Assembly: GCA_947034885.2 (NCBI GenBank)
Contig: OZ019759.1
Coordinates: forward strand, 13,084,501-13,148,500
Reading direction: 5' to 3'
Origin: Thuidium tamariscinum
Lineage: Eukaryota > Streptophyta > Bryopsida > Hypnales > Thuidiaceae
Length of the DNA stretch: 64,000 nt
Shown here: in pieces, positions 4,403 to 47,655 of the stretch
Numbering within the stretch: the stretch's first letter is position 1
Layout: every line of letters starts with the position of its first letter
Translations under genes and position numbers: made by a program
Notes under the pieces: model-generated
What the model saw: the letters and a program-made list of their open reading frames with translations, nothing else
The model's database searches: none
Told to the model about the DNA's origin: nothing

Positions 4403-5012
4403 AGGACCTCGCTTTCATTTAAGAATATGTTAGAGTAATACAAATATACGTACAAAATACGGAGATGTAGTACCATACCACTGCACGTGCGATTGTATTG
4501 TCTCCATCCGGAGATCTCCCAATGGATGACTCAGAAGCTCTCGCAATATTTCCATCCGGAGATCTCGTGATAGATAATTCAGAAACTATCGTAATATTTC
4601 CATTCGGAGATCTCCCAATAGATGATTTAGAAACTCTCACAATATTTCCATCCAGAGATCTCCCGTTAGATGATTTAGAAACTCTCACAGTATTTCCATC
4701 CGGAGATCTTTCGATAGATAATTCAGAAACTCTCGCAATATTTCCATTCGGAGATCTCCCGATAGATGATTTAGAAACTCTCGCAGTATTTCCATCCGGA
4801 GATCTCCCGATAGATAATTCAGAAACTCTCATAATATTTCCATCCGGAGATCTCCCGATAGATGACTCAGAAACTCTCGTGTTGTTTCTATCTATAGATC
4901 TTCCTAATGGTGACTTACAAAATCTCGCAATAGTTCCATCAAATCTCCGGATAATTGATTTGAAGAACACTTTGCTGTATTATTGAGATATCTCTTAATT
5001 TAGCGAGGTCCT
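4403..5012. mobile_element. 610-bp unit with 11-bp terminal inverted repeats
   Basis: AGGACCTCGCT at 4403-4413 is matched exactly by its reverse complement AGCGAGGTCCT at 5002-5012, and a second TTTAAG/CTTAA match lies just inside. The unit encloses the 48-bp palindrome array. No clear target duplication is visible outside the repeats, so the exact boundary is uncertain. It may be a non-autonomous element or the regulatory or subterminal block of the neighbouring gene-bearing element. Confidence 0.5.
4508..4960. repeat. 48-bp palindrome-bearing tandem array (10 units)
   Basis: The core TCCGGAGATCTCCCGATAG or a variant recurs at 4508, 4556, 4604, 4652, 4700, 4748, 4796, 4844 and 4892, with a reduced copy near 4940, so the spacing is exactly 48 bp. 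The centre GGAGATCTCC is a palindrome. Because 48 is divisible by 3, a 16-residue repeat stays open on both strands (PSGDLPIDDSETL-type on +, GRSPDGN-type on -). These frames are probably a by-product of the period, not genes. Confidence 0.92.
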
Positions 5013-7763: not shown

Positions 7764-10609
7764 TCATGTTGAAGGTGCAATGTTTGTGTCACCAACCACA
7801 TAGGCATTTACAAACTCTTTGATGATATTGATTTGTGCCCTCGGAATTTTAAGTCGTGGGGTAGATGTCCCTAGCCGCATACATGGCTTCCAAGCTGTCA
7901 TAATACAATCTGTATGTGTCCAACTTGGAGTGATAATTGTTTCTTCACACCACGAAATCCCTTGATGAGTATCCCACCCTGAATAAGTGTCTTCGTCAAT
8001 GTGCTGAAAAGATGAAGGCGTCCAATATTGCAATTGAATGGAATTCAAATGCCCTAGATTAAGATTTGGATTTGTAAGTGCACGAGCAAGCCAGAATGGC
8101 TTCAAATCACCGTCAACAAGACGCACTGCAACAAAATATCCAGCAAATGTGTCACGAAGAACATTGAATGATGGACGGGGCCGGTCACGCCTACGACCTA
8201 CAAAGGAAGCTTCCTCTTCATGATGCTCATGCGGTCTAACACCATCCCCAATTTCGTCAACCTCCTCTATGGCCATTAAGGAGTTAGGCCAGAATCCTTG
8301 TTGTAAAGTCTCTTGGACATCAAGAGTCTCGTTCAAGGCGGCTCTCACTCCATCCCAATACTTTTGGACAGGTTCAATTTTGCGACGGTACTCTCCAGAC
8401 ATGTCATCATCTGCCATCTGATTCCAAAGGGAAATAAAATTGTCCAAGCCTTTGCAAATCTCCTCAAAGTTTCGCATCTTCTGCGGAGGTACAGGCCGCG
8501 GAACACCTGTAGGCAAGTAGGGACGCCCATCAATAATCTCCTTCCACAAATAAATTCCTATTCCTTCCCTAGGTAACCAATCAATATCCGTACACAGGAT
8601 TTTGTATTGCATCAAGGGCCATCCATTGGAATCCATGTAGAACTTGAATTGTTGAGCTTGAGAGTGACCATGAAGAGAATCTGATCCCGAATTCGAATAT
8701 CCTTCCACAAACTGTTTAAAATTGGGGACCTCTTCAATAAGATGAGGAATGACAGGTTGTGTTTCACAATCCATGAAGGACTTCGTCAACCTGGGAATTG
8801 TTAGATAGTCATTGGCCCTCAACTTATTGCTCCAACAACGAAAAAGGGCATCAATGTCTTCATGAGTGTGTCCGATAATCAAAAAATTGATGTAAATTTC
8901 ACGGAAGATGGCTCTATAAACGAGGAGAGAGCAAAATGCGAACACCCAACGATTCTTGTTGTCTCCTGAAGCATTGTCCAACTGAAGAGTCAAGGTTGGA
9001 GGTAGAGGTTGTGCTTCGACCATCTCCTCCGGTGGGGTTGGAAGAGATTCTGAGCAGATCTCAGAGCTTGATAAAATGGCCTTGGACAACTCCGAACGGT
9101 TTGCATTCTCCACCAACAATTGACGAGATGTATATTTTGGTTGTGATTCTAAATCACGCAACAACCTAGCGATGGAACCTACAGTGTGATTTGAGTATGT
9201 AGGAAAGATGTCCAACCCATAGTGCACGTATCAAACATCTCCATGTCCATGCGCAATCATACCTGATACAGTAATGGGCAACTTCATGTATGAATCAATG
9301 CCCTTGTTCTTGTGAGAGTAATGAGGAGAGGCTGTCTTCGAGTGATCCATTTTGTCGTGGATTATAGTAAGAACCTTCTCAGGATACTTCTCAGACATCA
9401 TGCGATTTGCATAGTAGAGCTCACGGTGCACCCTCTGTCCTTCTAGGTGAACTTTCAACTTCCTTGACCACATTTCTTATGCCCGAGAACGTGGAGTGCA
9501 AGCACTTCGCAACTACTTGAATTTATCGCACTGACCACAGCGGGCAAAACTATCACCCCGAGGCTTGGGAGAGTACTCCGGAAAAAAATTTCTCCGAATT
9601 TTGCTCAAACCACTCGTAGAAATAGGTTGCAATTGTAATAGTGAATTGACGTTGTTTATTTCAGGCAGTCTCTCCCTCCAACGAAAAGCAGACGAGAGGA
9701 CCATAGATGGAACTTGTTCCCCTGATTTAAGCGTCCTTGACTTGTGTGGCATAGGGTCAGCATCCTTCTCCACAAGTAATCGAAGCGTAGCCACGGCTTA
9801 TAAAGTATGCGTCCGGGGCTTCTTCAATCCAAGATTACCATGCTGTTCCGGTTGTTTATTTGTCTTTGCCTCCGCTCGGTACTTGTAATAGGTCGACTTA
9901 TGCACTCCATGAATGGTACACCAGGCCATTGGACACACTTCAATTCCTGCGAACGTGATCATATCATTTCCGTCTACATCAGAGTGGACCTGTTTGTGCA
10001 CATCAAGCATACGGGACTTACGGTTGTATACACCTCCATGAAGGTGCACTTGAGACCGAATGGCTTGAATCTGCCCATGAAGAAATGGCTACAAGCAATT
10101 CTTCTTACAACACGTCTTGCTCGACACTTTGTTAATGGCCTGAGCGGTGAGCAGTCTCTTTTTTTTGGTGGATTTATTGGATCCCTACTCTCTTGCGAGC
10201 TCTCATAAGCCCTCACATCCACTCGGGGCCGTCTCCTTGAAGCATTTATGGCTGCATTGTAGATGTGGGTTTGCTCATGGTTGTACAAGCTAGCTTCGTT
10301 AAGAAAGATATGCTTGATACTCCAAGAGTGCAAGGACCACATCCACGCCGACGGAACTTCGTCCTCAAATAAAGACTCTGCAATCTGAACCGCTACCCGA
10401 TCGTCACCAAGGGCCTCTCCATTTACATCAATTACTAGACTGACATCAACGCCATGGCAGATCGCCTTTGCAACGTCCATCCCAGCCTCATTCGTGAGCG
10501 TCACAGCCTTCATTAACCAAGAAGAACGAGCAATACCCTCGCAAGGTGCAACACCAGGTGGTAACGTTGGCACCGTAAGGGCAAACTCATCAGAGTAAAG
10601 AGACTCCAT
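7764..10609 (-). pseudogene. DUF7869-like transposase-related gene (locus B), decayed
   Basis: The gene reads leftward from an ATG at 10609. The N-terminal third is in one frame and shifts frame near 10,040. From there to 7764 a single frame holds three in-frame stops (9798 TAA, about 9495 TAA, 9228 TGA). Visible parts in order are the Cys-containing FAGIEVCPMAWCTIHGV segment, CGQCDKFK, a KVLTIIHDKMDHSKTA block, GMIAHGHGD, then QLDNASGDNKNR (about 145 codons before the family's conserved HTHEDIDALF) and a long C-terminal region ending in an aromatic-rich QYWTPSSF segment. QLDN...DNKNR and GHTHEDID are, as I recall, hallmarks of DUF7869 proteins. A catalytic role of these acidic residues is inference. 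The 11-copy palindrome array at 10,961-11,860 lies upstream. Confidence 0.7.
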
Positions 10610-31970: not shown

Positions 31971-32023
31971 TCACTCAGTAGTACTAAAAGCCCCACTATG
32001 TCAAAGTGTGCAACATTAACCTC

Positions 32024-32600
32024 TAAAAGCCCAAGGGGTTAGGACAAAATACGAATGTGTTCTAAATTATAAGCGTTACAACTTTTTTGAAGTTAGTATC
32101 AAAGAAGATAATGTAAAGCACAAAAAGTAGAAAGTATCCATACAGTCAAAAATAACTTCAAAAATTCACCAAAAATACAATTTCTATTTTCAAGATTTGA
32201 AATTTTTTTTGATTGATCACAATTTTTTTTATTGATTTATAAAAAAATGAAAAATATTCAACCTCCAAAACCCCAAGGGATTAAGAAAAAATATGAATGT
32301 GTTATAAAATATAAGCTTTACAACTCTTTTGAAGTTAGCATCAAAGAAGATAATGTAAAGCACAAAAATTAGAAAGTATCCATATGATCAAAACTAAAAA
32401 ATATTTATAGATTATTTTAAATGACTTTTGAAGATATAACTTCAAAAATTCACCAAAAATACAATTTCTATTTTCAAGATTTGAAATTCTTTTTGATTGG
32501 TCAAAATTGTGTTCTTTATTGATTTATAAGAAAATAAAAAATATTCAACCTCCAAAACCCCAAGGGATTAAGAAAAAATACGAATGTGTTATAAAATATA
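32024..32600. repeat. tandem repeat split by the gypsy insertion, left part
   Basis: CCAAGGGGTTAGGACAAAATACGAATG-like starts occur at about 32,024, 32,262 and 32,546. Each is followed by the same order: GTGTTATAAAATATAAGC, GAAGTTAGCATCAAAGAAGA, CAAAAATTAGAAAGTATCC, TTCAAAAATTCACC. Unit lengths are about 235 and 285 bp because the second has an extra 50-bp segment. The third unit stops at 32,600 and resumes at 47,415. Confidence 0.88.
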
Positions 32601-32658
32601 TGTCGTGCACAAACACATGGCACACTTCTCACATGACAGCTGTCGTGCACAAACACAT
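32601..32658 (-). repeat. 3' terminal sequence of the gypsy element, reduced or rearranged LTR
   Basis: TGTCGTGCACAAACACAT occurs twice (32601 and 32641), separated by GGCACACTTCTCACATGACAGC. The piece CACATGGCACACTTCTCACA and the next five bases are repeated exactly at the other end of the element. The arrangement resembles an LTR end joined by two bases to the next LTR start, followed by an internally deleted LTR. It cannot be a full-length LTR copy. Confidence 0.55.
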
Positions 32659-32705
32659 CGTGCCAAGATTACATCGTGCTAATATGAGAGAAAGTGTGAC
32701 ATAAG

Positions 32706-33378
32706 TTAACAGGGAATCTTGTAATTGGCTAGCAACCTAACCACACCAAGACTCCATAGCTCCTGACCATCAGTAAATACTACTGTGGTCATAGGGAAAA
32801 TGCCACGTGACTTGTGACATATATTACAATCACGGTAATATCCTGCAAATAATGATAGAAATGCGAAAAACACTCTACCATCATAGTATGCAACACTAGC
32901 GACATCCATAGCAAGCAAAGAAAATAAACACCCACAGTACAACGGTACACCAGATGTGGTAAGTGGTTTTACAACCACCCCTTTACTCGCCCCCTTCGTC
33001 AGTGTTGAAGCCCCTTTCACACTAGCGAACTCAGTGGCGTTCTCTGAAGAACCACCAAGAACCCAGTAGAAAACCCTATGAAGATGAAGATGCGTGTCCA
33101 CATAAAACGCATTTCAATCCAGCTGAAATCCGTGAGTTGCTTGTATCAATTCGTCCATCAATGTGAGGCAAGTGACACGGCGCACAATTGCGCATGTGAT
33201 CTTTCCAGATCTTGCCGTCACGACCTTCCAAGAGCAATACTCCCGACTTCAACACCTCACGCACTCGTAGAATAATACGCCCTGCTGTCACGTCGAGTGT
33301 GGTTGGCGTTGTTTGCTGCAAATAAACATAGTCTCTAGGCAAAAAACGTCGAACCTGGGGCCTATAGCCCCCTCCTCA
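32706..33378 (-). pseudogene. post-integrase coding tail of the gypsy element
   Basis: After a TGA at 33376-33378 the pol frame continues in phase to 33076 with VRRFLPRDYVYLQQ and GRIILRVREVLKSGVLLLEGRDG. This resembles the C-terminal segment after the integrase core that binds DNA. No chromodomain is evident. A second, overlapping frame (33101-32706, 131 aa) follows in another phase; whether it is coding is unclear. Confidence 0.5.
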
Positions 33379-34686
33379 TATTGTGGCATAACGCAAAGTG
33401 TCTCTATGTTGTGCAATAGAAAGGTTGTCCAAAGCCATTGGCATTACTCTTTTATACAGCTTCGCCCGTTGCTCATATACGCGAGCCCACGTGTCCGGAT
33501 CATCCATATTATCCAATATCTTGTCTGCATCTTGTTTGATTGCCATAGGTAAAACCGGATGACGCCCAAACAGTAAATAATAGGGTGAAAAAGAAGCAAG
33601 AGATGCTTGCTTACTAAACCGATAGCCCATGGCTATCCATGAAAGTTGCAAGTCCCAATCTCTATGATGCCCCTTGTTCAAACTATATTTCCGAAGCCCC
33701 CTCTTGACGGTTTGCACCATGCGCTCCGCCAATCCATTTGCTTCAAGGTGATCTCTTGAAGTAGTACGGTGATCAATCATCGCTTGGTCACACAAGGCTT
33801 GAAATTCACCAAGGAACTCTCGTCCTTGATCAGTCAATACCTCAGCAGGAACCCCGAAGCAACTCAAAACACGATCCAAAAACAAATAAGCTGCCCCTTC
33901 ACTGAACTTATCAGGTAATGCCACCAACTCAATCCATTTGGAAAAATGTTCAATCATCACCAATACATACTTATTATATCGTGGTGTTACCGGTAATGGC
34001 CCTACAAAGTCTAAACTCCACCTATAGCCCAATCCCATGATTGGCAACGGTTGTAATTGAGGCATTGGGGCATTGAATGATGCCCGCACTCTATCACACA
34101 CGATGCATCTAGCTACCAATTGTTGAACTTGTAATTGCATTCCTCGCCACCAATAGTGAATTTGTAGCAAGCTATGAATTCTTCGCACTCCAAAATGCCC
34201 CAAGTCCTTGTGAGCATGCATAATCAATTTCACTCTCTCATGAGGTGCCGGTACTACCTTTTTGTTGCCATCTGGCCATACTCGAAGCAAATGAGTCCCC
34301 TCCCACACAAACCGCTTGGCTCGTTGTAGAATCCAATCTCTCTCCTTGGTTGACACAGTAGTTGTCAATTCTTCATGCTTCAAGTATTTCATAACCTCCA
34401 CATCTTCAAAAATATCCTTGGCGCCCCTAGACTCTTCACCTCCATCCACATCCATTGCAGCCACAATGGCTTCCTCGGTAGTGTCTCCAGTCATCGCCGT
34501 AATACTCAAGTAGGTGGCACAATGCCAACCTGGTAACGAATCTTCTCCCTCTTCCACGTGCCAACAAGCCCCCATAGAGTCTACTTGGCTAAGATTTGGA
34601 TTGCGGCTCAAGCCGTCAGCATCCATATTTACCAAACCGGCTCGGTGTACAACTTTAAAGTCATACTCCATGAGCATAAGCGCCCA
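33379..34686 (-). pseudogene. gypsy integrase (and RNase H end)
   Basis: The frame begins just after a TGA at 34687-34689 with the last RNase H residues and HRAGLVNMDADGLSR, the usual end of RNase H. The integrase zinc-binding part has H...H and CIVC (HAHKDLGHFG...CIVCDRV). The catalytic core has the first Asp in SLDFVGPLP, the second in VLTDQGREF and the Glu in NGLAERM. The segment ends with the FGRHPVLP motif typical of gypsy integrases. The catalytic residues are present but the reading frame is broken upstream and downstream, so this copy cannot make integrase alone. It inserts the cDNA copy into host DNA in intact relatives. Confidence 0.85.
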
Positions 34687-36093
34687 TCATGCAAGCTTTC
34701 CTGTAAGTTTGTCAGACTCCATAAGCCACTTCAATGGTTGGTGATCTGTTACCAGTAGAAATTCGTTACCGTATAAATAGCAGCGGAAATGAGTAATTGC
34801 CCAAATTGCTGCTAGACATTCTCCTTCATATGAGCTATATTGTGCCTCCGCGTTGTTATTTGAGCGACTAGCATAAGCTACTACAAACTCCTTGCCATCG
34901 TCGTCCATTTGAGTCAACACCGCGCCAATCCCCAGTGAGCTCCAATCCGTGTGTAATTGGTATGTCCTACCTGAAATTGGCCTCCTTAATATTGGTGACG
35001 ACGCTAGCCGTTCCTTCAATTGCGTGAAGGCAGCTTCTTGCTCATCTCCCCACATCCAAGGTTGATCATTCCTTATCAACATGGTTAATGGCTTTGCAAT
35101 CACACTAAATGTCTTCACAAATTTCTGATAGTAATTACACAAACCCAAAAATGCCCGCAATCTACTCACATCCTTCAGCCTTGGAATAGAAAGCATCACC
35201 TCTACTTTGCTGGCTACCACTCCCAATCCACCGGGATATATCATGTGGCCCAAGTATTCCACTCGGTCATAATAAAACTTATATTTATTCGGATGTAGTT
35301 TTAACCCATAGAGCCTCAGTCTAGGAAATACTTCTGCCAAGTGAGCTCTGTGTTGTTTTTGATTCATGCTATAGACAATAATATCATCAATGTATCATTT
35401 TACAAAATCCAAGCCCGAAAATATGCGATCCATAACTCTTTGAAATTCTGCTGGTGCATTTTTCAAACCAAATGGCAGGAACCTCCACTGATATAGACGA
35501 TCCTTACCATCTTCATCAATTCCCCAGAATGCCGTTTTCTCCTTATCACCTTCTCCTATACCAAATTGGTGATAACTCGATCGGAGATCCAAAGTACTAA
35601 ATACTTTGGCATGGCCAATGGCGTCAAAATTCTCCTCTAGTGTTGGCATGACATAGCGGTCTGACTTCGTGAACTTGTTAATTCTATGATAGTCTCCACA
35701 CATCCTTTTCTCGGTCCAATTTCCATAAATGTCTTTTTTGGATGGCATGACCGTTGCTGATGCATACTCGCAATCTGGAGAAGCTAACTCTACCAATCCT
35801 GCCTCTAGTAACTCCTTGGTTCGGGCTTGGATCATCTTGCGTTCTACCTCGCTATACTTGTACGGTTTGCGATAAATCGGTGCATCATCTGTCAAGTTAA
35901 TACGAACCTCTTGTCCCTTCAGTACACCTAAGTCTTTAAGACTAAAGGCAAAACAATCCACATACACCTTAAGGAACTCTTGTTCCTCCTTCATCTCTGC
36001 TTCATTTTCCAGGCCTACCAACGGTTGCCAAGTTTTATTGGTCACCGTTTCCTTCCTATCTTCCTTTGAAGCAGATTTTTCCACCTTTGGTTG
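34687..36093 (-). pseudogene. gypsy reverse transcriptase and RNase H
   Basis: The RT part shows ELLEAGLVELASPDCEYAS, RMCGDYHRINKFT, FSTLDLRSSYHQFGI, QWRFLPFGLKNAPAEFQRVM and the catalytic YIDD. A TGA at 35395-35397 replaces the residue just before YIDD. RNase H shows HTDWSSLGIGAVL, YEGECLAAIWA and VTDHQPLKWL, so the acidic catalytic residues are visible. A second TGA lies at 34687-34689. Both stops are in frame with the flanking coding sequence. Within pol the RT follows the methyltransferase across an in-frame TAG at 36094-36096. The frame is the same from protease to integrase, as expected for one polyprotein. Confidence 0.87.
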
Positions 36094-37016
36094 CTATTGC
36101 ACACCACGTGGAGTAGAGTCATCTTGCTCTACTCCAACCATGCCATACTGCTCTTCAACTTGGCTCAATTGCCATATTTCCTCGGTTTGATTCTCTATGT
36201 GTTCCTCAAAGAATAATTTATCCACATGCTCCTCCAATTTGATTGTATGCTTGGCCATTTGCTCCCAACTAGGCCAATTGGTTCGTGGAGTCGTGAAAAA
36301 TGAATTACTCTTCCATAAATCCCATGGGTGAGTTGTAAGGGCCCCTTCGCCCCCAACCATCAAGTGCAAAGTCTCGAAACTTGATGGTTTTATGGCCTCT
36401 TGCAACTCATGAAATCCCAAGTGGCCTGATAAAGTTGAAGCTATATGCTTTTGCTCAGCCACTACAAGTGAAACCACCCAAGAGAGACAATTTAAATCCA
36501 TGGCTTGACCTATGAGGTGTCGTCTCTGGAACTCGGTGATACCATGAATGTTGGTGATTCCCGTTTGGAATCCCATAGCCCTTTCCCGTTTGTCAGCATT
36601 GGGTTCCACCATTTCTTCAGTGCGGGAATCCCACACTAAGCCTGGTCCATTGTCTTTAAAGGTATAGGACCTTGAAAAACTCACCAAAGTGGGCAAAGCC
36701 CTGCGTGGTTCGCCTTTGCGATTAACTACCGCTAATGGAGCTTGATCATCATGGTATACACGCCTTGGTGAACGGTGAGGATCTAAAATATCCTTCACAT
36801 AAACATCTGGATGTTCAATCCGTTCAATTGTAGCAGATAATAACTCTGGTGGTACCATATTAGTCCACCAGAGTCGCAGTCTATGAGCTCGTGAGCCCAC
36901 TGCTGCTGCATCCAATAAAACAGGAATGCCCAAAATTCCATGAATACGATGAATACTTTCTAGCGTGCGTGTGCGTGAAGTACTCACTACAGGTACATTT
37001 TCAATAATATACCCTG
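36094..37016 (-). pseudogene. C5 DNA methyltransferase domain, C-terminal half, in gypsy pol
   Basis: This half holds the catalytic ENV motif (GYIIENVPVV, near 36,994-37,002) and the motif VIII-like SRAHRLRLWWTN, whose AHR-R-WxN form resembles DNMT3 more than DNMT1. A target-recognition region of about 90 residues follows, then the motif IX/X-like ERAMGFQTG...RRHLIGQAMDLNCL. C5 methyltransferases transfer a methyl group from S-adenosylmethionine to cytosine. No stop falls within the domain; the first is TAG at 36094. The start of the half is set by the target duplication at 37017-37021, where the nested element joins. The sequence after the domain (about 120 residues) is an unassigned linker to RT. 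Confidence 0.85.
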
Positions 37017-37021
37017 GTGGA
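37017..37021. repeat. target-site duplication GTGGA (left copy)
   Basis: Identical to 40914-40918 and flanks the nested TG...CA element exactly. Element plus one duplication is 3,897 bp, a multiple of 3, so the surrounding pol frame keeps its phase. Confidence 0.92.
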
Positions 37022-38287
37022 TGTCGTAGCACAGGAAAGCACAATTCCTCCTCTAAGGCGTTAGAATGGACTAAAGTAGCCTTAAAGTGACTCGTGTATC
37101 GTTCCCAAAGGATTTGGTCGAAAGTTGACGAAAGACCGGAATACGTTAGTAGTTACCACAACAAAACCTAAGCAAAAGACCGATCCGGTCTAGGTCTCAA
37201 GGTTCCTAAGATTTCCTTAGACCTGATTACCAACCCAATCTTTTATCTTTCAAGAATTATATATCTGTTTATACTAGTATATTTATCACCTTTATACTTA
37301 CCCTTACTAGATATGGGACTAAAGACCGGGTACTAGGAGTTGGTCCAGTCCCTAGATTAGTAACCAAATGTAAGTTTTACCTCGATAACAAGAGGGGTCT
37401 GCTTGTTTGGGCATTTAGGAAGGAAGCTTACTCCTACCCTTCAAGTTTTAAAGTGTCAGAAGTTCCACTTGCAAAGAAAAAGAGACTACTACTACAACTA
37501 GATCGGAATACCCCACAACTGGACCGGGACTAATCCGGCCCAGCAGGTCACGCAAGCACTCCTGCCTAATCCTAACAAAGACTACAACGACAGATTATCC
37601 AGTTAGTCTAAGTCCTGGTAGAACAAGGGCGGTAGCTCATGCAAGAGAGCTGAATTTCTTCACTTAGTCCTTCTTTCTTCTTCAGAGACCGGATCACCAT
37701 TCAGTTGGCATTTGGCCGGGTACTTCCCGATCTCAAACCCAGACTCTACAAGTGTCTATCCCTATCAAATACTCCCTAGACCTGTTCCAGAAAACACTAT
37801 GAGATCCTGCACAAATTCCCTATCAAAACCGAATTCACTTTAAGTCCAGAGACCGGATAAACTGAACATCCGGGCACACACTTACCCACACAAGGCTGCA
37901 ATCCTAACCATCACCATAAGACTTAGACAAGGTCCCATGCACATAGTCCACTCCAGAGTGAATCAGAAAGGCTCTGACTTGTATTTGCAACACAAAAACT
38001 TGTGAAAGTAAGATAACATAATGCGCGCCCGGATTCAATTACAAACCGGGTTTAAATACTAACTACAAGTAAACCTAAAAGTGCAAATGGAATCAAAACC
38101 AACTACAAAGAATGCCACGTGACATTCCTCTACAACTTGGGCGGGTTGACTTCCACAAAACTCCAAAAATACCAACAAAATAGGATCTCAGATCCTACAA
38201 ATTTGGATCCGGTCTAGGTTCAAAAATACCTATCCTAAATACATCCTGCTTTAGCTGCCTTCCTATCTACCTGGCGTTAATGCTTCC

Positions 38288-40384
38288 CTACTTCCTCACC
38301 CGCTTTACAGGCGATGCACCCTTCCGGGCTGGCTGCTTCTTCGAAGACCGGTACATCTTGACTGGTCTGGGTTTCGGCTTGGTTTTACCTCGCGCCTTGG
38401 CCCTGGTCTGCTTGGTCTCCGCCAGTGCTTGGTCTGCGTCTGAGTACTGGTTCGACTCATCACCGGAGTCGGTCTCCTCCTCCGAGTCCTCATCTTCCTC
38501 TTCTGAATCCTCCTCCTCTTCAACCCGGGCCTTCCGCTTCGCTGTGGGCGTCTCCGTGGTCTTCTTTTTGAACCCAGTGATGGGCGGATGGTGCACTGCC
38601 TTGCTCTGCGGGGTCTGCTCCCCCACTCTCTCGACAATCTGGACCTGTCCCTTGCTTGGTGAGCCAGATCCAGATCCGGTCTTCAGTATGGTGCGGACTG
38701 GCACCGTTGCCTTTGCTTCCCCTCCGGTCTTTGGTTGCGTGATGACCGTGGGTGATGACTTACCGGGAAAATCGTCCAGCAAGTTGATGAACTTGGTCTT
38801 CTCCCTCGGTGGTGTTGTTCCCCGAATAACCTCCCGCAACACGCTTGGCTCGGGTTCCGGCTCCTTGGTCTTCTCGGGTTCAGAAACCCTGGGCTCTTCA
38901 ATCTGGGTCTGTGTGATAGGTACCTCCACCACGGCTTTAGACCTGATTTCTTCTTCTTTCGCTGGCTCGGACGCACCGGCCTCCATCTCAACGGTAGCTG
39001 GTGGTGGTTGTTCCTTCGGGTGTTCCACCTCCATCTTCTACCCCTCCGGTCTTGGGACCGGAATAGAGCTAGTTTGGACCTCCGTGGCGACCGCTCGCCA
39101 CTTCTCCAGAACTGCCTCCATCTTCTTGTTGTAGGCCACCAGAGCAATGAGCATCTGTGGACCTACCATCTTGCCTGCCTCCAACACCTTCTTGTCGAAT
39201 AGCATGGCCTTGTTGACGACTTCGCTCGGATGTGTGATGAACTCTCGGATTTCTCCGAGAGTGTTCCGGGCCTTCGTGGTGAGGCGTCTATCTTCATCCA
39301 GCTCCTCCTGAGTGTGATGGAGCTCCCTCTTCAGGGCTGAGACCTGGTTCGTTAGCCGGAGCACTTCCTCCCTGTCCCGGCTCTCATGGGCTTCCCGAAT
39401 CAACTCTCCCAATACCTCCATGATTTTGGAGGGTGGGATAGAGCCTAGGGCTCGGTTGATGTCCTGTAGTAACCCCCTCTCCTCCAGGTGGTGCTTCCTA
39501 AAGTCATCCAGGTCCCGGATTATCCTCATCAAGGGGTCCTGTCCCCAGACCGGATCCACTCCTTGGGTCTCTCTTGCCAACACAGAGGCTTCTAGCGGCA
39601 CACTACCTTCTCCTACCTCTGGTTCTTCCTTTCTCTCCTGCAGTTCCTCTTGCTGCTCATCTTGACCCTCTTCCTTCGAGACCTCATCATCCGGGTCCTT
39701 GTCGGCCTCCGGATCCTCTATCTCATATTCTATCATTGCGGCTCTCACCTCGTAAGCCTCTCTCTCTCTCTCCCTTAGGAGGTCTAACGAGTGGTACAAG
39801 TGAAACAGGAATGGTGAAATGGGAGAGGGTTTTGATTTCCCAATTCCATTCACCATTTTAACCATCTGCTCCCGCATGACTAAACCCCAATCTATCCTCC
39901 TGTCTCCCGACAGCGCACCAAAGATGGTGTTGGCTACGGTGACCGTAATTCTACTAGGTCTATCCGAGTTCAAGATCGCCATCATGAACCGCAGCAGCCT
40001 CTTGTGTCTAGCACACACACACTCGGCTACCGTGAAACCATCCTTCGGGTTGGTGGGCCTGCGGAACTTACCCTGGTGAAACTTGTCTGTTCGGGTGCCC
40101 ATCACATCTCCGCCTTGCTCGAAGGCGTACACCTTGCGCCACATAGTCGCACTCCACTCCCTTGGCAGCGACCGGACCGTCCCCTTCCATTTGTTGGTCT
40201 GGCAGCCCAGCAATTCCTCCACCATCTCCTTATCTTTCAAGTTCGACGGACGCGCCATAAACCCCTCGCAGCCCATCTGCCTGAGGTCTTCCTCCAACTC
40301 CAGCTTCTCTTGTACGTCAGTTGGCACGACCGGATTGACATTCCGGAAGGCTAGAATCATTCCCTCCTGTACCTCACTTGCCAT
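38288..40384 (-). CDS. gag-like protein of the nested element, split by one in-frame TAG
   Basis: ATG at 40384 opens 448 codons to TAG at 39038-39040. The same frame then continues for a further 248 codons from 39034 to 38288. The N-terminal part has a folded-looking core (EEDLRQMGCEGFMARP, LPREWSATMWRKVYAFEQGG, KDGFTVAECVCARHKRLLRFMM). The middle is acidic (EEGQDEQQEELQERKEE) and is followed by a likely coiled coil (LTNQVSALKRELHHTQEELDED). The C-terminal part is Glu/Asp-rich and then very basic (AKARGKTKPKPRPVKMY, ending KRVRK), suiting nucleic-acid binding. There is no CCHC knuckle. I recognise no family. The N-terminal 135 residues are conserved in the second copy at 63,596, so the frame is under some conservation. 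Confidence 0.6.
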
Positions 40385-40615
40385 CGCTCACTTTACGCTT
40401 ACACTATCTAGGCGCGGTCCAACTTGACTAAACTCTCAGTGCTCAAGAACCTCTTAACTCGCTTAGTGCTAATCGCTCAACTATAAGCCAGACCGGATTG
40501 ACAGATTATCTATCCCCTCTCTCTGTCTGTAGACCGAATATTCTCTCTCTGGCCGGAAGACCCTTTCTCGAATTGCGTGCAAGAAAGTGGCAGGACCTAG
40601 CCTTGCTCTCCTGGT

Positions 40616-40621
40616 CTTATA
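40616..40621 (-). promoter_or_regulatory. candidate TATA box of the nested element
   Basis: GGGGGAAAAGTATAAGACC on the minus strand lies about 230 bp upstream of the gag-like ATG. It is conserved at the same place in the second copy (63359-63364). Its position inside the terminal block resembles a U3 promoter. Function is inferred. Confidence 0.5.
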
Positions 40622-40913
40622 CTTTTCCCCCAGCATTAATTACTGACCGTTAGGTTTAAACTAGTCTGGTCACGTGGGAGAGTTTCCGACAATCTCTAGG
40701 CTCGGTAGCCACTCATTGCCTATCCGGTCTGGGTCGCTAGTTAGGCTGGATCCGGGTTTTCTTACGCTGTTCCTTAACGTAGTTTTCTTCTTCCGGTCTT
40801 GGTCTTAATTGTGCGTCAAACTAAGGAAACAACAAAAAAAATGGGGATTGAATAAATCCCTTTTTCCTGTATTTTGCTTAAGAACCTACTTAGGTGAATT
40901 CTAGGTTGCCACA

Positions 40914-40918
40914 GTGGA
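40914..40918. repeat. target-site duplication GTGGA (right copy)
   Basis: Exact match to 37017-37021. Marks the right edge of the nested element and the point where the methyltransferase coding sequence resumes. Confidence 0.92.
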
Positions 40919-42075
40919 CGCGGTTGAGAAGTTTGGATAGAACGAATTATCCGCACCATATCATAAAACCGCGAAGAACGATTGTCCTTCAACCCATTTT
41001 GCTTACCGGCCATAGACATACCTTGACATGGCCACCCCGCAATAATTAAATCTACAGGTCCCACGCGTACAATGTCCTCATGTGAAATCATTGAAATGTC
41101 ACGTGGTAATGCAAAAAATGCAGTTTTGATAGCATGGGTACTTAATAATGAAGGAAATACTTGGCACAATCGTCGAGCATGATACTTTGCCACTTGACGT
41201 GCCATATCGTCATTGTCCACATAAAGGTATCGTCGCACCTTCACTCTTGCCTGCAATACTGCAGCCAATCCAGTGCCAATCTCACCAAACAACTCCAAAA
41301 GTGTAATACCTTCATCTGATGGTTTCCAATGGATTGTAGAAGTATCTAGAGGCAGACCTGCATCGTCTATACTTGTATCGTCCTCCTCATCCCGTGGCAA
41401 CAAAGATTGCTGCCACACCTCTTGGATCACGATTGTTGTTGCATCTTGTAGCTTGGCAGTACTCTCCCACGCTGATTCCACCCTTGGTTGATATAATGTT
41501 TCGCCCCCATCTTCGGAATTATCCAAGTAATCATTTGGATCTTGGCTAGTTGCAATGGAAGTGGCAACATGGGGATTTTCGAAATCCTCCTCAAACCAAG
41601 GTTGGCCTTCAGCTACAAGCCCAGAGAAGCAATAGAGATTAGCAAGATTACCGGTAAGAACTCGAATAAAACGAGCTGGCAAGTGAGCTTTTCGTCCATC
41701 TCCAGCTTGCCATCCCGGTCTATAAGATGCTGTCTCCTCCCAAAAGTCCAAGGTGAAGCCCATAGGGTATAGTACCATAGCCCCTACCAAAACATCATAA
41801 GATTTGGCCTCTGTGACTATAGCCTTCACCTTCATGAAGCTAGCGTCCTTGACATCATCATGGCGAAGCCGTAGTGTTAATTCGCCCTTTGTTATGCCAC
41901 TGGCTTGCTCCGTCCCTCCCATAGATGTACTAATGGTCCATGGACACGTCTCCAATGTGTCCCTAGTTAAACCCAACCCTTCGATTGCCGACTCTCCTAG
42001 CATCAAAGGTTGGGCTCCAGAATCCAATAGTACTCTTCGAGGCGCAAAAACTTTCCCTTTAGGTCCAACAAGTTG
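40919..42075 (-). pseudogene. gypsy protease and N-terminal half of the C5 DNA methyltransferase
   Basis: The aspartic protease appears first: LLDSGAQPLMLG with the catalytic DSGA, and a later VLVGAMVLYPMGF typical of retropepsin folds. After a linker of about 130 residues comes the methyltransferase: motif I ITLLELFGEIGTGLAAVLQA (about 41,250-41,307), then RRYLYVDNDD (motif II-like). Motif IV is GWPCQGMSMAGKQNGL, with the catalytic Cys in PCQ near 41,026. This half has no stop. It ends where the nested element inserted, between motifs IV and VI. Its frame differs from gag by a -1 step near 42,075-42,080. Confidence 0.88.
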
Positions 42076-42080
42076 GAAAA
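42075..42080 (-). other. gag-protease frame change at a TTTTCC run
   Basis: Reading gag through GTGTTTTCCAAC and stepping back one base at the T-run continues directly into the protease frame. It could be a programmed -1 shift or simply one extra T. Gag carries other lesions, so the distinction cannot be made here. Confidence 0.45.
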
Positions 42081-44010
42081 CACCTTGGAATTATCAAGAA
42101 CCATCACCTCTGGAGTGATGGAAGACCGTTCTATTGCTGGACGTGTTGGCATGATCTTCAATCAAGCAGCCGCTGAGATAAGGCCCTCAGATTGGGCCCA
42201 ATTCTCACTAGTCATTATCTCTGACTCAAGCCTGGTTTCCATTGCACTCACAGATGTAGAGGTGCCCTCCTCACACATGGTAGTCGCCAATTGGAACACC
42301 TTAGCCACACTAAACTATAAGTGTGAAATTATGGATGCAGAAAATAAAGGAGCCTGGCAAACCGTAGTGGCCGCATCAAGGAGTATACTAGTTTCTTGGC
42401 TAACTGTAGTAGTAGGCCGCTTAGCTCGCAGAGTGCTTGAGTGTCGGCTTGTTGGCACCATAGATGAGGTGGGAACTACATCTTCTATAGTAAATGACTC
42501 CGGCAACCGCGCTTGGCGGTTGGCTTCACCTCGCTGTGGATCCAACTTCGTACTTGCACCTCGTGGTACATCAGGTAGTATAGTCTTGCTCCGTGTCATG
42601 GCAAAACCCTCCACTAAGGGATCAAGGTTGGCACTCATGGCCGCCATCTTAGCCTCCAACTCTGTAAATCGAGCCTTCCACGACTTCTTATCTCCATTAG
42701 TAGTTTTGGCCTCTTTGGATTCAGCCCCTTTTGCATCTTTAGCTCCTTTAGGCTTGAGTTCTAGATGTATCTTCCAACAACTAGCTTCCCCATGGCCCTT
42801 AACACCACACCCAGAACAATAACCACCTGCCTTAGAAGGTTCCTTCTTCGTCATCTTTTTGCAATCTCGCCGACGATGACCCACTCCCCCGCAACCATAA
42901 CATACAATATCCGCATCTCCAGTGTTAGCTGGAATGTTGACTTTGGTAGACTTGGTCTTCTCTGGTGGTTTTTCTTCCCTTTTTAAGAACCCCATGGTAG
43001 CTTTTTCCTCCAAGAGATTGATCTCAATCCTTTCAGAGGTCTCAAAAACAAACCTTAAAGTTGGTGGCACACCTAACCTCAAGGCTTCTCCTCAGACTAG
43101 AGTTTTCAACTCCTTGTCGAGTATACTATACCAATGCTGAACAGCTTACTGTTCAGTCACTCCATGTGTTGCAGAGATTAATCTCCTCAGTCTCAAATGT
43201 GCCTCTCGCAATGATTCGTCACTCCCACGTGCAAATGTGCGAAGTGACTTCATTTTATCTGCTCGTTGGCCTCGATAGTCCCGTTGCAACTGCATGAAAA
43301 ATCGTGCAGTGGGATTGAAAGGGGGTGGATCTCTCACCATCGTAGGAGTCGTGGTGACAGTGACATCTGAGCCTTCTGTACCAGCACTCCCTTCTTCTTT
43401 CTTCCCTTTGCTATACTGGATCATAACATTAGGCCCTCCTCCCCATACATCGGAAAAATTTGGGGAATAATAATCCTGCCATGCTAGAATCTCTGTGGAG
43501 TGAGTAAGCTCGAACTCCCCATAATCTGCTAGCAATGCTCCTTCAAGGCACCCAAATAATGCTCTCCATACCATGTATGGGTTAAAGTCAATGTTGCGTG
43601 ATTTTTGGTGCTCACACCACATGGTGAACTCCCTTCGAAAATCATCAACCTCCATAGTGCCTGTAGCACCCGAAAATCGCCGAACTCCCCGATCAAAACT
43701 CCCATATAGTGTAGTCATCTCGTCCCACACAAATATAGATTCCCTAGGAGCAAGTTTTACCCCGTGGTCAACTATGATGGTGGATAGCTCTTCTTCCTCC
43801 ACGCGCTCAAGGTTTTCCACCAAATTTTCTTGCCTTTCGCTAGTACTTGGGATAGAATCACCTTAACCCTTCTTCCCCAAGAAAGGTTTTTGATCCCGAG
43901 ACCATACTAGTGTGACACCACTGGAGTCTGATGACTCAGAAACAGTGTCCTTAGCAAATGGTGTCCCGCTCCTGGTATAACCTGGCCTGCTAGACGGATC
44001 CAGTTTTCAC
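42081..44010 (-). pseudogene. gypsy gag with two CCHC zinc knuckles
   Basis: One frame contains the capsid-like core (FVWDEMTTLYGSFDRGVRRFSG, MEVDDFRREFTMWC) and a second block with LQRDYRGQRADKMKSLRTF. Two knuckles follow: CYGCGGVGHRRRDC and CSGCGVKGHGEASC, each CX2CX4HX4C. The frame is broken by stops at about 43,860 (TAA), 43146-43148 (TAA), about 43,092 (TGA), 42315-42317 (TAG) and 42162-42164 (TGA), without frameshift. The start is uncertain; the coding pattern fades near 44,000. Gag forms the particle that packages element RNA in intact relatives. Confidence 0.82.
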
Positions 44011-44166
44011 ATGTAAATTAAATTTTCACATGTAAAGCTTCCAAGCCTCATGCGTCCCCTCCACCGCCCCACAGTAAATTGTTGGTGGCACCTCTATGTC
44101 TAGGAAACCACGTGTTAGAGCATCCCAGACACTGGAAGCTCTTTCCATCCACCAACCTTGTTCCCA

Positions 44167-44709
44167 CTACCACGTTGTGTGGAACAAGTAATCCCCACTT
44201 TGGAACTCAATGAAAATCAAGGAGAACATTGGCAATTGAATTGTCCCCTCAAAAATATGTCTCACCACCTCTCGACGTTGCCCCTCGTTCTTCAATACCA
44301 TCGCTTGTTGTGGAATTACCAAGTCAATTGCTTCCACCCGCCCCCTTGTCCGATTCAACGGAGCTCCAATGCTAGGCAATTCTGCCCTCAAGTCCCAAAT
44401 GAGGCGCACTCCTCGTTGTTGAGTCCAAAATTTAATTGCCTTTGGACCTAACACTTTAGTGCCTAGTTGCCTGAATGCTTGGACTCCAAGTCGGTCACGT
44501 GCCAATGGTGAGAGAACAAATGGCAAAGTAGCTTCTTGAGGTTGATGTCTTAGATTAGATTCACTTGAGGACCCTAAGTGAAGGGTTTGGAAGGATTCTA
44601 GAACCCCTTGAAGATCTTCTTCGGTTAGTTCAATTTGTATCCCTTCCTTTTTCGTATCTCCTAGTGGTATCAACCTAAATGGCATAAGGCCACCCTTGCC
44701 TTTGTCCAT
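44167..44709 (-). CDS. ORF0-like frame upstream of gag, 180 aa
   Basis: ATG at 44709 opens MDKGKGGLMPFRLIPLGD and continues with TEEDLQGVLESFQTLHLG, a Gln/Arg-rich middle and a C-terminal block LPMFSLIFIEFQSGDYLFH. Composition is protein-like and the frame has no lesion. I recognise no domain. It lies between the 5' terminal region and gag of the gypsy element, where some plant gypsy families carry an additional ORF. The function is unknown. Confidence 0.5.
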   Translation of the reverse strand: MDKGKGGLMPFRLIPLGDTKKEGIQIELTEEDLQGVLESFQTLHLGSSSESNLRHQPQEATLPFVLSPLARDRLGVQAFRQLGTKVLGPKAIKFWTQQRGVRLIWDLRAELPSIGAPLNRTRGRVEAIDLVIPQQAMVLKNEGQRREVVRHIFEGTIQLPMFSLIFIEFQSGDYLFHTTW

Positions 44710-44908
44710 TGTAGTGCTGCATGGTACAACTTAGACTAGATATCCAAAATATCGAACCCTAAACCAAATGTAGTTGTGTAGATAATCAACACAATAAAGA
44801 TGAATCCTCAATCACATAAATAGTTTTTAGTGTTTGGCACAAAGCGCCACATACACCCTAACCATAATAAGCTAAATAATATTAGCTTAAATCCATTCCT
44901 ATCTATAT

Positions 44909-45154
44909 CTAGGAGCACCGAGCAAAGTCAATCATACGATCGCGGTTTAAGTATTTGAGTCCAACATTGAGTACTTCAACCTCTATCTCACGAAGAGACT
45001 GAGCATGCAACAACCGATCCAAGACTCCTGCCCGGTTATTATCCCAACTCTCTAAGGAGATGAAAGGAGTAATCTCCACACAAAAGCGGTAGGCCACTAC
45101 ACTTAGTGCATTGACATCCATACGTTGTGCCCTTGCCAAATCTGCACGCCACAC
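44909..45154 (-). CDS. second small frame in the gypsy 5' region, 81 aa
   Basis: The frame includes RAQRMDVNALSVVAYRFCVE and LREIEVEVLNVGLKYLNRD and has plausible protein composition. The phase is different from the 180-aa frame downstream. It could be the first part of the same upstream protein broken by an indel, or chance. No domain recognised. Confidence 0.35.
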   Translation of the reverse strand: MWRADLARAQRMDVNALSVVAYRFCVEITPFISLESWDNNRAGVLDRLLHAQSLREIEVEVLNVGLKYLNRDRMIDFARCS

Positions 45155-47414
45155 ACTCCAAAACTCTGCCCCATGATGCTAAAGTCCTCGATCTGGCACT
45201 CACTCTTAGATGATGGTCAATAGTTTTGCAATCAAGTCGGCCTCATGTTGCCATTGCTCTGCCTCTGTCAACTCAGGAAAATGTGCTGGAGATCTATGGC
45301 GAGCCACTTGGGCCCTTGTGGTCACCATAAGTGTTACTCCCACCTCCCACCTCCAGTGCTAGGTTCCAATGCATCCAATAACAACTTTCAAAGAAGTTGT
45401 CGTCGTTTTTTTTTTGTTTTTTTTTACAAAACTTGGCCTTAAGCGCCCTGTGCTACAGGCAAGCCTCAGCCAATGATGACCGGTTGATCCGGTCAATTCC
45501 TAGTTCCCACCTGTTGGCTTCGACGCGAACAAGTCTCAAATCCCTAATTTCTCAGTGCTAGCCGAAGTGGATTTGAATCCAACTGCAATTCAATCACCTC
45601 CTCAGTTATATCGTTCAATTATCCACGAATGCTAATCATGAATGCAATGTGAGATCTACGGAGTTTACAGAATAGCGAAATTGTAACTTCGACAATTGCC
45701 ACTGGAATTCGGCAAAAGCGCGCACAGAAGCACGTCAAGATGGACTAATACAGTTCGAAGTCTTTGACAAAATGCCAAGGTAGATCAGATCTTGCTGCTG
45801 CAACTTGCATCAACTTCCGCATTCCCAAGCGGCAAGATGCATGGGTTCTCAGGTCTTTCCGTCGAGACTCAAAATTTGTACCCACGATTGTTTCGCAAGC
45901 AGTCTGTGTCTACGGTTGGGTAGGTGAATTTAGGCGTTCGGGACGTGGAGACTAGTATGAAAGTTGGGAAGTCTCTAGATCCTTCTATGAGAGGGCTGAA
46001 ATCGAAGCACAAAAGAATACAAGTCCTAGGTACATGAACTCACTCAGCTTGCATTGACCCCTGCAGTCTTCCGAAAACAAGCCACTCTCGCACTGCTTCA
46101 CGCAAATCTACAGTCTCAATCTGAATTGGCAAGGCTCCATTTCGGAGTCCATTTAGAAGTAAAATCCACAGCAGCTCCGAGGAAGCTCGAAAACCGTCGT
46201 AATTGTGGACTTCCGATTACTATTCTACACTACTCGCGACAAACAGGAGCTACTAACGGGAATTTGGCCAGCAAAGCAAATTCTAAAGGAGCTAACCTCT
46301 TTTTTATTTTTGGTTGTCGATATTGGTGCCTCCTAATCCATCAATTCCGCTTTGCAATATAAGAAGTCAATGCCTCCTTCGTCCAGGTTCCCTCAATAAT
46401 GTCGCAAGTTGAGAGAGCTACAACATAATCCCCAACACTCACTCCCATCTGCTGCAGCCTATCTTTTCTCCTCTTGGAAAATTGTCCACGGAAGCACTCA
46501 ATCAAGGGCCATTATTGGCGCAGCAGCAGAAACCTTCCTAGTAGATCCTTCGTCCCTGTCAATAGTGAGTAGAATTCCTTCGCTCGCAGCTACCGCTTCG
46601 CACATTTGCTCACAAAAAACGAGGCAACGTCTTTGGCAACGTCAACCAAACTGCTTTCGGGGACGTTCCTTCTTCTCAGGAGAGAGACGACTCTCCCCTC
46701 CACGTTCCCTTGAGTTCCCTTAAGTGTTCCCTAACCAAGTTGGAGTTAACTTTCCCTTAACTCATGGTTCACTTTAATGCCTTTCATTGGTGGAAAGACA
46801 TCATGCTTATCTATCCTTTGCTACAATTAGGTGCAATAATGCACATTTCAACACCTATAGGCTCAAGACCCATTTCCAAGGCTAAAACACCCTAAAACCA
46901 TGGCTATGGTGCTAGAACTTGAGGTTCTTTTGCAATTCCAGCACATGCAAAACACCTCCAAAATACAAAAAAACACGTTTTTGTACAAGTTTAGATGTAG
47001 ATTTTCATTACGTATACACCCATGAACACAATGAGATCTTTTTCAAGTAATGAAAGTGAAGAAAAGCTTCAAAAGAAACTAGAGAAACCTCACAACATTG
47101 CACAAGTCAAGTCTACACCATTCTTGAAGAATGATTGCATGCTTGGACGGAATTCCGAGGCAAATGCCTCTCACTCCATCACATGGGAGACTCAACTTGA
47201 AAAAGATGAGTCTCCATTGCCCCACGTGGAAGACATGGGCATTGAGGTCCCCAAACGAGATGCCAACTCCCCGTCCCGATTCGAAGCCGAGACCCCAACT
47301 TGCATCCATGGTTCCTCATGCTCCACAATGCTCTGTAACGCTCCGCGCTGCTTCACATATATCTTCACATTGTTGGGCTGACGGAAAATCACATGGCACA
47401 CTTCTCACATGACA
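45155..47414 (-). repeat. 5' terminal (LTR) region of the gypsy element
   Basis: Begins TGTCATGTGAGAAGTGTGCC at 47414 on the minus strand. No reading frame here carries a recognisable domain. A poly-T run is at about 45,407-45,424 on the plus strand. The inner end of the LTR and the primer-binding site cannot be fixed, because the 3' LTR at 32,601 lacks the matching sequence beyond 25 bp. Confidence 0.55.
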
Positions 47415-47655
47415 TATAAGCTTTACAACTTTTTTGAAGTTAGCATCAAAGAAGATAATGTAAAGCACAAAAATTAGAAAGTATCCATATGATCAAAATT
47501 AAAAAATATTTATAGATTCTCTTCAAATGAATTTCAAAGATATAACTTCAAAAATTCACCAAAAATACAATTTCTATTTTTAGGATTTGAAATTTTTTTT
47601 TGATTGGTCAAAATTGTGGTTTTTATTGATTTGTCAAAAAATAAAAAATATTCAT
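47415..47655. repeat. tandem repeat split by the gypsy insertion, right part
   Basis: Starts TATAAGCTTTACAAC and follows the same order of motifs as 32,312-32,540. This sequence completes the repeat unit that stops at 32,600. Confidence 0.88.

Follow-up and report, generated by a model that had tools for sequence, protein, structure and literature searches.

The window, a 64-kb stretch of the genome of the moss Thuidium tamariscinum, raises the question of whether a C5 DNA methyltransferase (DNMT) found inside a retrotransposon polyprotein is a lasting component of a transposon lineage or a chance arrival in a single copy, and what such an enzyme could do for its carrier.

Anatomy and decay of the window copy

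The methyltransferase motifs share one minus-strand frame with protease and reverse transcriptase (RT), as the sequence-only reading had proposed, and that frame is now divided among five open Pol pieces (40816-42090, 36094-37152, 35395-36093, 34687-35394, and 33376-34686). Pfam matches along these pieces give the Pol order protease, DNMT, RT, RNase H, and DDE integrase, with the RVT_1 match (E 1.2e-12) downstream of the DNMT, and upstream, in a different frame from Pol, is a gag that contains a CCHC knuckle. Element limits were set from the terminal repeats and from an AT-rich repeat of ~287 nt that the element interrupts. The element reaches well past the extent first proposed, 36094..42027: it spans 32601-47414 and has a 3.9-kb insertion within it. 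The features are listed along the element strand.

32601..47414, minus strand: whole element, 14,814 bp including the insertion; Ty3/gypsy Pol with split-direct-repeat ends
47415..47418, no strand: target site duplication TATA, right
47390..47414, minus strand: terminal repeat A1, 25 nt, 5' end of the element; exact copy of A2
43146..43862, minus strand: N part of gag, open piece; 43% identity over 192 aa to Marchantia P0190
42315..43091, minus strand: C part of gag with CCHC zinc knuckle; PF00098, E 1.1e-4
41779..42042, minus strand: aspartyl protease (DSGA); PF13650, E 3e-4; 21.9 bits, below the cut-off of 24.3
40914..41350, minus strand: N-half of the DNMT with motif I (ELFGEIGTGL) and motif IV (GWPCQGMS); PF00145, E 5.4e-12; catalytic Cys present
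37022..40913, no strand: insertion of 3,892 bp with TG..CA ends inside the DNMT; GTGGA duplication
36367..37021, minus strand: C-half of the DNMT with motifs VI (ENV), VIII (AHRLR), and IX/X (RERAMGF..LIGQAMDLN); 74% identity over 211 aa to P0086
36094..36096, minus strand: in-frame stop at the DNMT/RT boundary
34687..36093, minus strand: RT and RNase H; PF00078, PF17919, and PF17917; in-frame stop at 35395
33376..34686, minus strand: DDE integrase with H2C2 zinc finger; PF17921 (1.3e-13) and PF00665 (1.7e-12); preceded by the in-frame stop at 34687
32641..32658, minus strand: terminal repeat B1, 18 nt; exact copy of B2
32614..32638, minus strand: terminal repeat A2, 25 nt; exact copy of A1
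32601..32618, minus strand: terminal repeat B2, 18 nt, 3' end of the element; 5-nt overlap with A2
32597..32600, no strand: target site duplication TATA, left

No Pfam match was obtained for the N part of gag (43146..43862). Among solved structures, Ty3 came closest to the first RT piece in the window, to the RT of the related protein P0193, and to the integrase. The claim of a C5 methyltransferase inside a Ty3/gypsy Pol was confirmed. Judged by the sequence kinship of its Pol, the element is a member of Ty3/gypsy and not a canonical LTR element: it has the CCHC Gag, the protease, the RT-RNase H nearest Ty3, and the H2C2 and DDE integrase of canonical members, and it differs from them in its extra DNMT, its 25-nt and 18-nt split direct repeats, and the lack of any LTRs found. 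We regard this anatomy, a Ty3/gypsy Pol with a built-in DNMT, as virtually certain.

The element ends are DIRS-type split direct repeats, not LTRs, and run A1, coding region, B1, A2, and B2 on the element strand in the single copy that the window provides. When the 400-nt ends were shuffled 200 times, the longest left-right match never exceeded 12 nt, against the exact 25-nt and 18-nt matches of the element; a search of 28000-50000 for LTR pairs of at least 25 nt found none. Repeats at 32018-32600 and 47415-47654 were considered as LTRs and rejected, being parts of the ~287-nt AT-rich repeat that hosts the element. When the flanks were joined with a single TATA, they matched the neighbouring AT-rich unit at 94.8% identity over 231 columns with the junction unbroken, and TATA is therefore a 4-bp target duplication. 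DIRS elements are not known to make a target duplication. The published geometry of DIRS repeats is the same A-coding-B-A-B order, and DIRS elements carry a tyrosine recombinase (PMC5890265); the window element has the split direct repeats but neither the recombinase nor the absence of a duplication.

The window copy is dead, with an insertion splitting the DNMT and three in-frame stops (36094, 35395, and 34687) breaking Pol; gag likewise survives in separate open pieces. The insertion sits between DNMT motifs IV and VI, flanked by GTGGA copies at 37017-37021 and 40914-40918, and the empty site reads through the DNMT in frame. Because insertion and duplication together amount to 3,897 bp (3 x 1,299), the two halves remain in one frame. 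Open frames of 449 and 249 codons were identified on the minus strand of the insertion; no LTRs were found in its 3,892 bp, where the repeats were a CT run, no other exact repeat longer than 14 nt, and one imperfect 27-nt pair at 78%. The CpG observed/expected ratio in the element was 0.61-0.65, with TpG in excess, compared with 0.37 in the left flank, 0.86 in the right flank, and 0.64 in the window. This depletion and excess are consistent with past methylation, but the CpG depletion is common to much of the window and cannot identify the responsible enzyme, as host enzymes would produce the same.

Identity of the methyltransferase domain

The catalytic PC, ENV, and AHRxR motifs are all present in the window copy, in canonical order with the insertion between them, and the full motif order is I, IV, VI, VIII, IX, and X. 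Its PF00145 match places the domain inside the C5-methyltransferase family, in agreement with the first assignment. The C-half alone gave no Pfam match; P0086, to which it is 74% identical, carries PF00145, and the assignment of this half is further backed by the aligned motif columns. Among 91 domains, the catalytic Cys was kept in 88 and the catalytic Glu in 90, while E replaces P in motif IV in 17.

A profile of 17 relatives searched against PDB scored 82 bits with DNMT3A, 45-51 with DRM, 33 with M.HhaI, and 28-29 with DNMT2, and no DNMT1- or CMT-named chain was among the 57 PDB matches up to E 10. When the predicted fold of a relative was searched with Foldseek, all 50 rows listed were DNMT3 entries. 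By sequence, motif order, and this predicted fold, the domain is best described as DNMT3-like, and the suggestion of DNMT3-like motif forms made from the letters is supported. It belongs to the same family as host DNMT3 enzymes, with the same motif order, and differs from host DNMT3 and DRM enzymes in being encoded inside a retrotransposon.

Chance motifs were ruled out by profile, tree, and fold. A DRM origin was ruled out by the lower score and the unrearranged motifs, the motif order of DRM being rearranged (PMC5890265), unlike that of the window enzyme. DRM chains were not among the 50 VIA rows listed, an observation that carries no weight. A bacterial or phage Dcm origin was also rejected: 15 IMG/VR enzymes (from 16 loci, L019 being omitted with a score below 30) fall across a 100/99 branch from the set of retroelement DNMTs, DNMT3A, and DNMT3-like phage enzymes.

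Relatives, layouts, and descent

We identified 191 related proteins in a first search, with 110 of the 120 listed from JGI metagenomes and 10 from other sources; a second and a third search, which scored only the ~8,000 candidates that had the most words in common with the query, gave 67 and 56, overlapping in part. Among the matches listed were proteins from the liverworts Marchantia polymorpha and Calypogeia fissa, the mosses Sphagnum troendelagicum, S. fallax, and S. jensenii, and the algae Closterium NIES-53 and NIES-54 (Zygnematophyceae) and Cymbomonas tetramitiformis (Chlorophyta), whereas no named Klebsormidium protein was among those listed (120 of 191 in the first search). Many relatives carry PF00145, and the records of some are labelled plain DNA methyltransferases or hypothetical proteins. 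The Marchantia protein P0126 holds protease, DNMT, RT, and RNase H in a single chain, and P0193 holds DNMT, RT, RNase H, and integrase. No match was obtained in IMG/VR with P0009; alignment A2 retrieved 16 viral C5 enzymes there, whose loci showed nothing matching the RT, RNase H, or integrase of the window element, and the 29 and 17 stretches of prokaryote genomes that matched the pattern included no relative.

Of 217 proteins fetched, 165 matched the DNMT; a protease was also detected in 97 of them, in every case before the DNMT, and RT, RNase H, or integrase in 36 of the 165. That a host DNMT gene or fragment landed by chance in an ordinary gypsy element, although compatible with the window copy taken alone, is extremely improbable given these counts, the 191 related proteins, and the at least 11 different MARPO_ locus tags from Marchantia among the matches listed, and we reject such a one-off insertion unless all the relatives are misassemblies.

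The 36 informative proteins fall into two layouts. Layout I, with the DNMT before RT as in the window, was identified in 19, and the protease-DNMT-RT order noted at the outset recurs in named land plants. Layout II, with RT or RNase H before the DNMT and the DNMT between RNase H and integrase, was clear in 8; a further 8 were partial, being fragments without RT or RNase H in which the DNMT precedes the integrase, and P0130 was ambiguous, its gene model missing pieces. The precomputed Pfam lists assign a PHD finger (PF00628) to all 8 partial layout II proteins, to 6 of the 8 clear ones, and to no layout I protein (0 of 19); it follows the integrase in P0198, P0199, and P0206, the proteins checked. 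The larger result, as annotated from these sequences, is a DNMT-carrying gypsy Pol whose occurrence extends from liverworts and Sphagnum mosses to a zygnematophyte and a prasinophyte, and a second layout that mostly has a predicted PHD finger.

The DNMT and RT of the window element are kin to the same relatives. In a quick DNMT tree (65 retroelement rows thinned from 91, the two window halves, and 3 phages), both halves, entered separately, clustered with JGI rows in a single clade (99) next to one of Marchantia, Calypogeia, and Sphagnum, and the two clades together had a support of 97. A careful tree of 40 rows hand-picked from the 65 gave 100/96 for the window clade and 90/99 for window plus bryophytes. 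The window element grouped with Marchantia in the RT tree (23 proteins; 99/96) and with Sphagnum in the integrase tree (22 proteins; 96/93). Identity between the window element and P0126 was 51% in the protease, 51% and 49% in the DNMT halves, and 53% and 65% in the RT pieces, so that conservation of the DNMT appears similar to that of the first part of RT. From these similar identities and from the DNMT and RT trees, the DNMT appears to have travelled together with its element.

The retroelement DNMTs formed one clade against DNMT3A and the phages in the careful tree (100/99), which contains no host plant DNMT3s, and again (99/99) in a tree of 15 IMG/VR enzymes and 20 retroelement rows, where this clade adjoins DNMT3A and the DNMT3-like phage enzymes. 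A single retroelement clade points to one capture and a later shift of the domain inside Pol. A bolder reading, somewhat less likely than not, is that a split-repeat gypsy lineage captured a DNMT3 once, before land plants, became a self-methylating lineage, and later underwent the Pol shift and, in one branch, gained a PHD finger. If so, the lineage would persist in liverworts, mosses, zygnematophytes, and one prasinophyte, the capture could predate the streptophyte/chlorophyte split, the DNMT would have moved from the protease/RT site to the RNase H/integrase site, and the PHD branch would combine a reader of chromatin with a writer of DNA methylation.

At least two separate captures of DNMT3 from hosts, once at each of these sites, are also possible, though on the doubtful side. 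The two positions in Pol would fit such a history, as would the separation of the layouts on the RT tree (100/100) and the single DNMT clade of layout II in the careful tree (11 rows; 100/99), and the charophyte case has been described as an independent acquisition (PMC5890265). The common clade of the sampled retroelement DNMTs speaks against it, yet the host-side references in these trees were DNMT3A segments, with neither named Klebsormidium proteins nor host plant DNMT3s, and host genes of bryophytes, charophytes, and chlorophytes could interleave. Unlike in the RT tree, the layouts were not cleanly apart on the integrase tree (2 changes, with 1 in 36% of bootstraps). Two proteins with layout I order, P0204 and P0216, were placed with layout II (support 90) in the quick DNMT tree, where they meet as unstable long branches.

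Horizontal transfer between algae and bryophytes, instead of old vertical descent, is an unlikely cause of the wide distribution. Many relatives come from metagenomes, and Closterium lies away from the bryophytes on long branches in the careful DNMT tree, as transfer could produce; in the same tree, however, support was obtained for a group of the Marchantia rows and for another of the Sphagnum rows. One relative, P0136, was assigned to a bacterial bin, although its contig is probably from a plant or an alga.

Possible function and known counterparts

For intact relatives we infer catalytic activity, packaging, a cDNA substrate, and a benefit. The DNMT would be produced within Gag-Pol, packaged alongside RT and integrase, and methylate cytosines of the element's own new double-stranded cDNA or of the fresh insertion, so that new copies would arrive in the genome pre-marked. 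The mark might disguise the cDNA as host DNA, or it might hold the copy in check and thereby spare the host. That the enzyme is active in intact relatives is likely, and that it acts on the element's own cDNA or insertion is almost evenly balanced, leaning slightly against. As a whole, we lean towards a decayed element of Ty3/gypsy lineage with DIRS-like ends and a long-held DNMT3-type enzyme that would methylate its own cDNA or insertion.

Methylation of cDNA was proposed for DIRS elements by the authors of a 2018 study, who showed CG activity in yeast for DIRS-borne DNMTs and remarked that other retrotransposons manage without a DNMT (PMC5890265). The domain of KnitGypsy-Dnmt3 gave no methylation in yeast, a result that the authors call inconclusive (PMC5890265). 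By analogy, this negative result with the nearest tested element counts against self-methylation.

A target other than cDNA, such as RNA or target chromatin, or a structural or tetramerising role like that of DNMT3L, seems unlikely to us on present evidence. Because split-repeat elements need not prime from tRNA, their replication is unusual, which would accommodate another target, and the PHD finger after the integrase in most layout II proteins suggests a chromatin link. A DNMT3L-type partner is catalytically dead, its residues not so kept, unlike the nearly invariant catalytic Cys and Glu of the retroelement enzymes. The inactivity of KnitGypsy-Dnmt3 in yeast (PMC5890265) would suit a different role.

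KnitGypsy-Dnmt3 of Klebsormidium nitens is the closest counterpart by description, with a DNMT3-type, non-rearranged enzyme in the Pol frame with Gypsy domains and, according to the legend of Fig. 4c, a DIRS repeat structure with typical Gypsy domains, as in the window element (PMC5890265). Its host is a charophyte alga (PMC5890265). The window element is a broken newcomer to the KnitGypsy-Dnmt3 kind, likened to it by published description. SymbioDIRS-Dnmt3 of Symbiodinium likewise has a DNMT3 in the Pol frame and split repeats, and its enzyme showed CG activity in yeast, but it is a DIRS element with a tyrosine recombinase, whereas the window element has a DDE integrase and a target duplication (PMC5890265).

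The novelty of a land-plant family with this order stands in part: we found no publication on bryophyte gypsy-DNMT elements or on the layout with the DNMT before the integrase among open-licence papers, but the algal KnitGypsy-Dnmt3 is a precedent (PMC5890265). A 2025 paper mentions DNMT3s embedded in retrotransposons of streptophytes and dinoflagellates, following the 2018 work (PMC12344493). The relatives in Marchantia, Calypogeia, and Sphagnum contradict, for bryophytes, the statement in a 2019 paper that land plants lack methylases encoded by transposons (PMC6338049).

A transposon lineage appears to have retained its own DNMT3-type enzyme, with near-invariant catalytic residues, despite the silencing of transposons by methylation. 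Cytosine methylation is a main plant defence against transposons, and the relatives in liverworts, peat mosses, and green algae allow one to ask why a genome parasite would carry a silencing tool of its host. Marchantia is a genetic model, and with relatives present there, any benefit of the DNMT to the retrotransposon is directly testable in the plant. Across the 64-kb window, there were no tRNA or Rfam matches, and the sole Pfam match above cut-off in the eight other open frames scanned was DUF7869.

Related Pol proteins with the methyltransferase next to integrase

Among the related proteins from database searches, P0198 and P0199 are gypsy Pol proteins with the order RNase H, DNMT, integrase and PHD finger, and P0206, also a gypsy Pol, has the DNMT followed by integrase and then a PHD finger, with its front part missing. 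As predicted from their domain content, reader and writer are combined in a single polyprotein in all 3. The gene model of P0214, from Cymbomonas, places ankyrin repeats ahead of an RNase H-DNMT-integrase series; these repeats may reflect either a fusion or an annotation artefact.

Bacterial and viral assignments

The retroelement DNMT P0136 was assigned to a MAG of Candidatus Obscuribacterales, had no match in the species-level genome collection and is probably mis-binned eukaryotic DNA. In a tree with 15 other viral C5 enzymes, from IMG/VR, the C5 enzymes L001 to L003, of Synechococcus, Roseobacter and Vibrio phages, clustered with DNMT3A (support 97/92) and apart from those 15.

The insert and the surroundings of the element

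Two features interrupt, or are interrupted by, the element:
37022-40913, insert in the DNMT, with TG..CA ends and a 5-bp duplication (GTGGA)
32018-32600 and 47415-47654, AT-rich tandem repeat of approximately 287 nt, its array interrupted by the element

The insert showed neither LTRs nor terminal repeats; it contains 2 open frames of 449 and 249 codons on the minus strand, for which Pfam gave no significant family. Elsewhere in the window, a 488-codon open frame (7764-9230) matched DUF7869 (PF25273, E 6.5e-39), and a short amino-acid unit of RSPDGN type was repeated along an open frame at 4419-4979.
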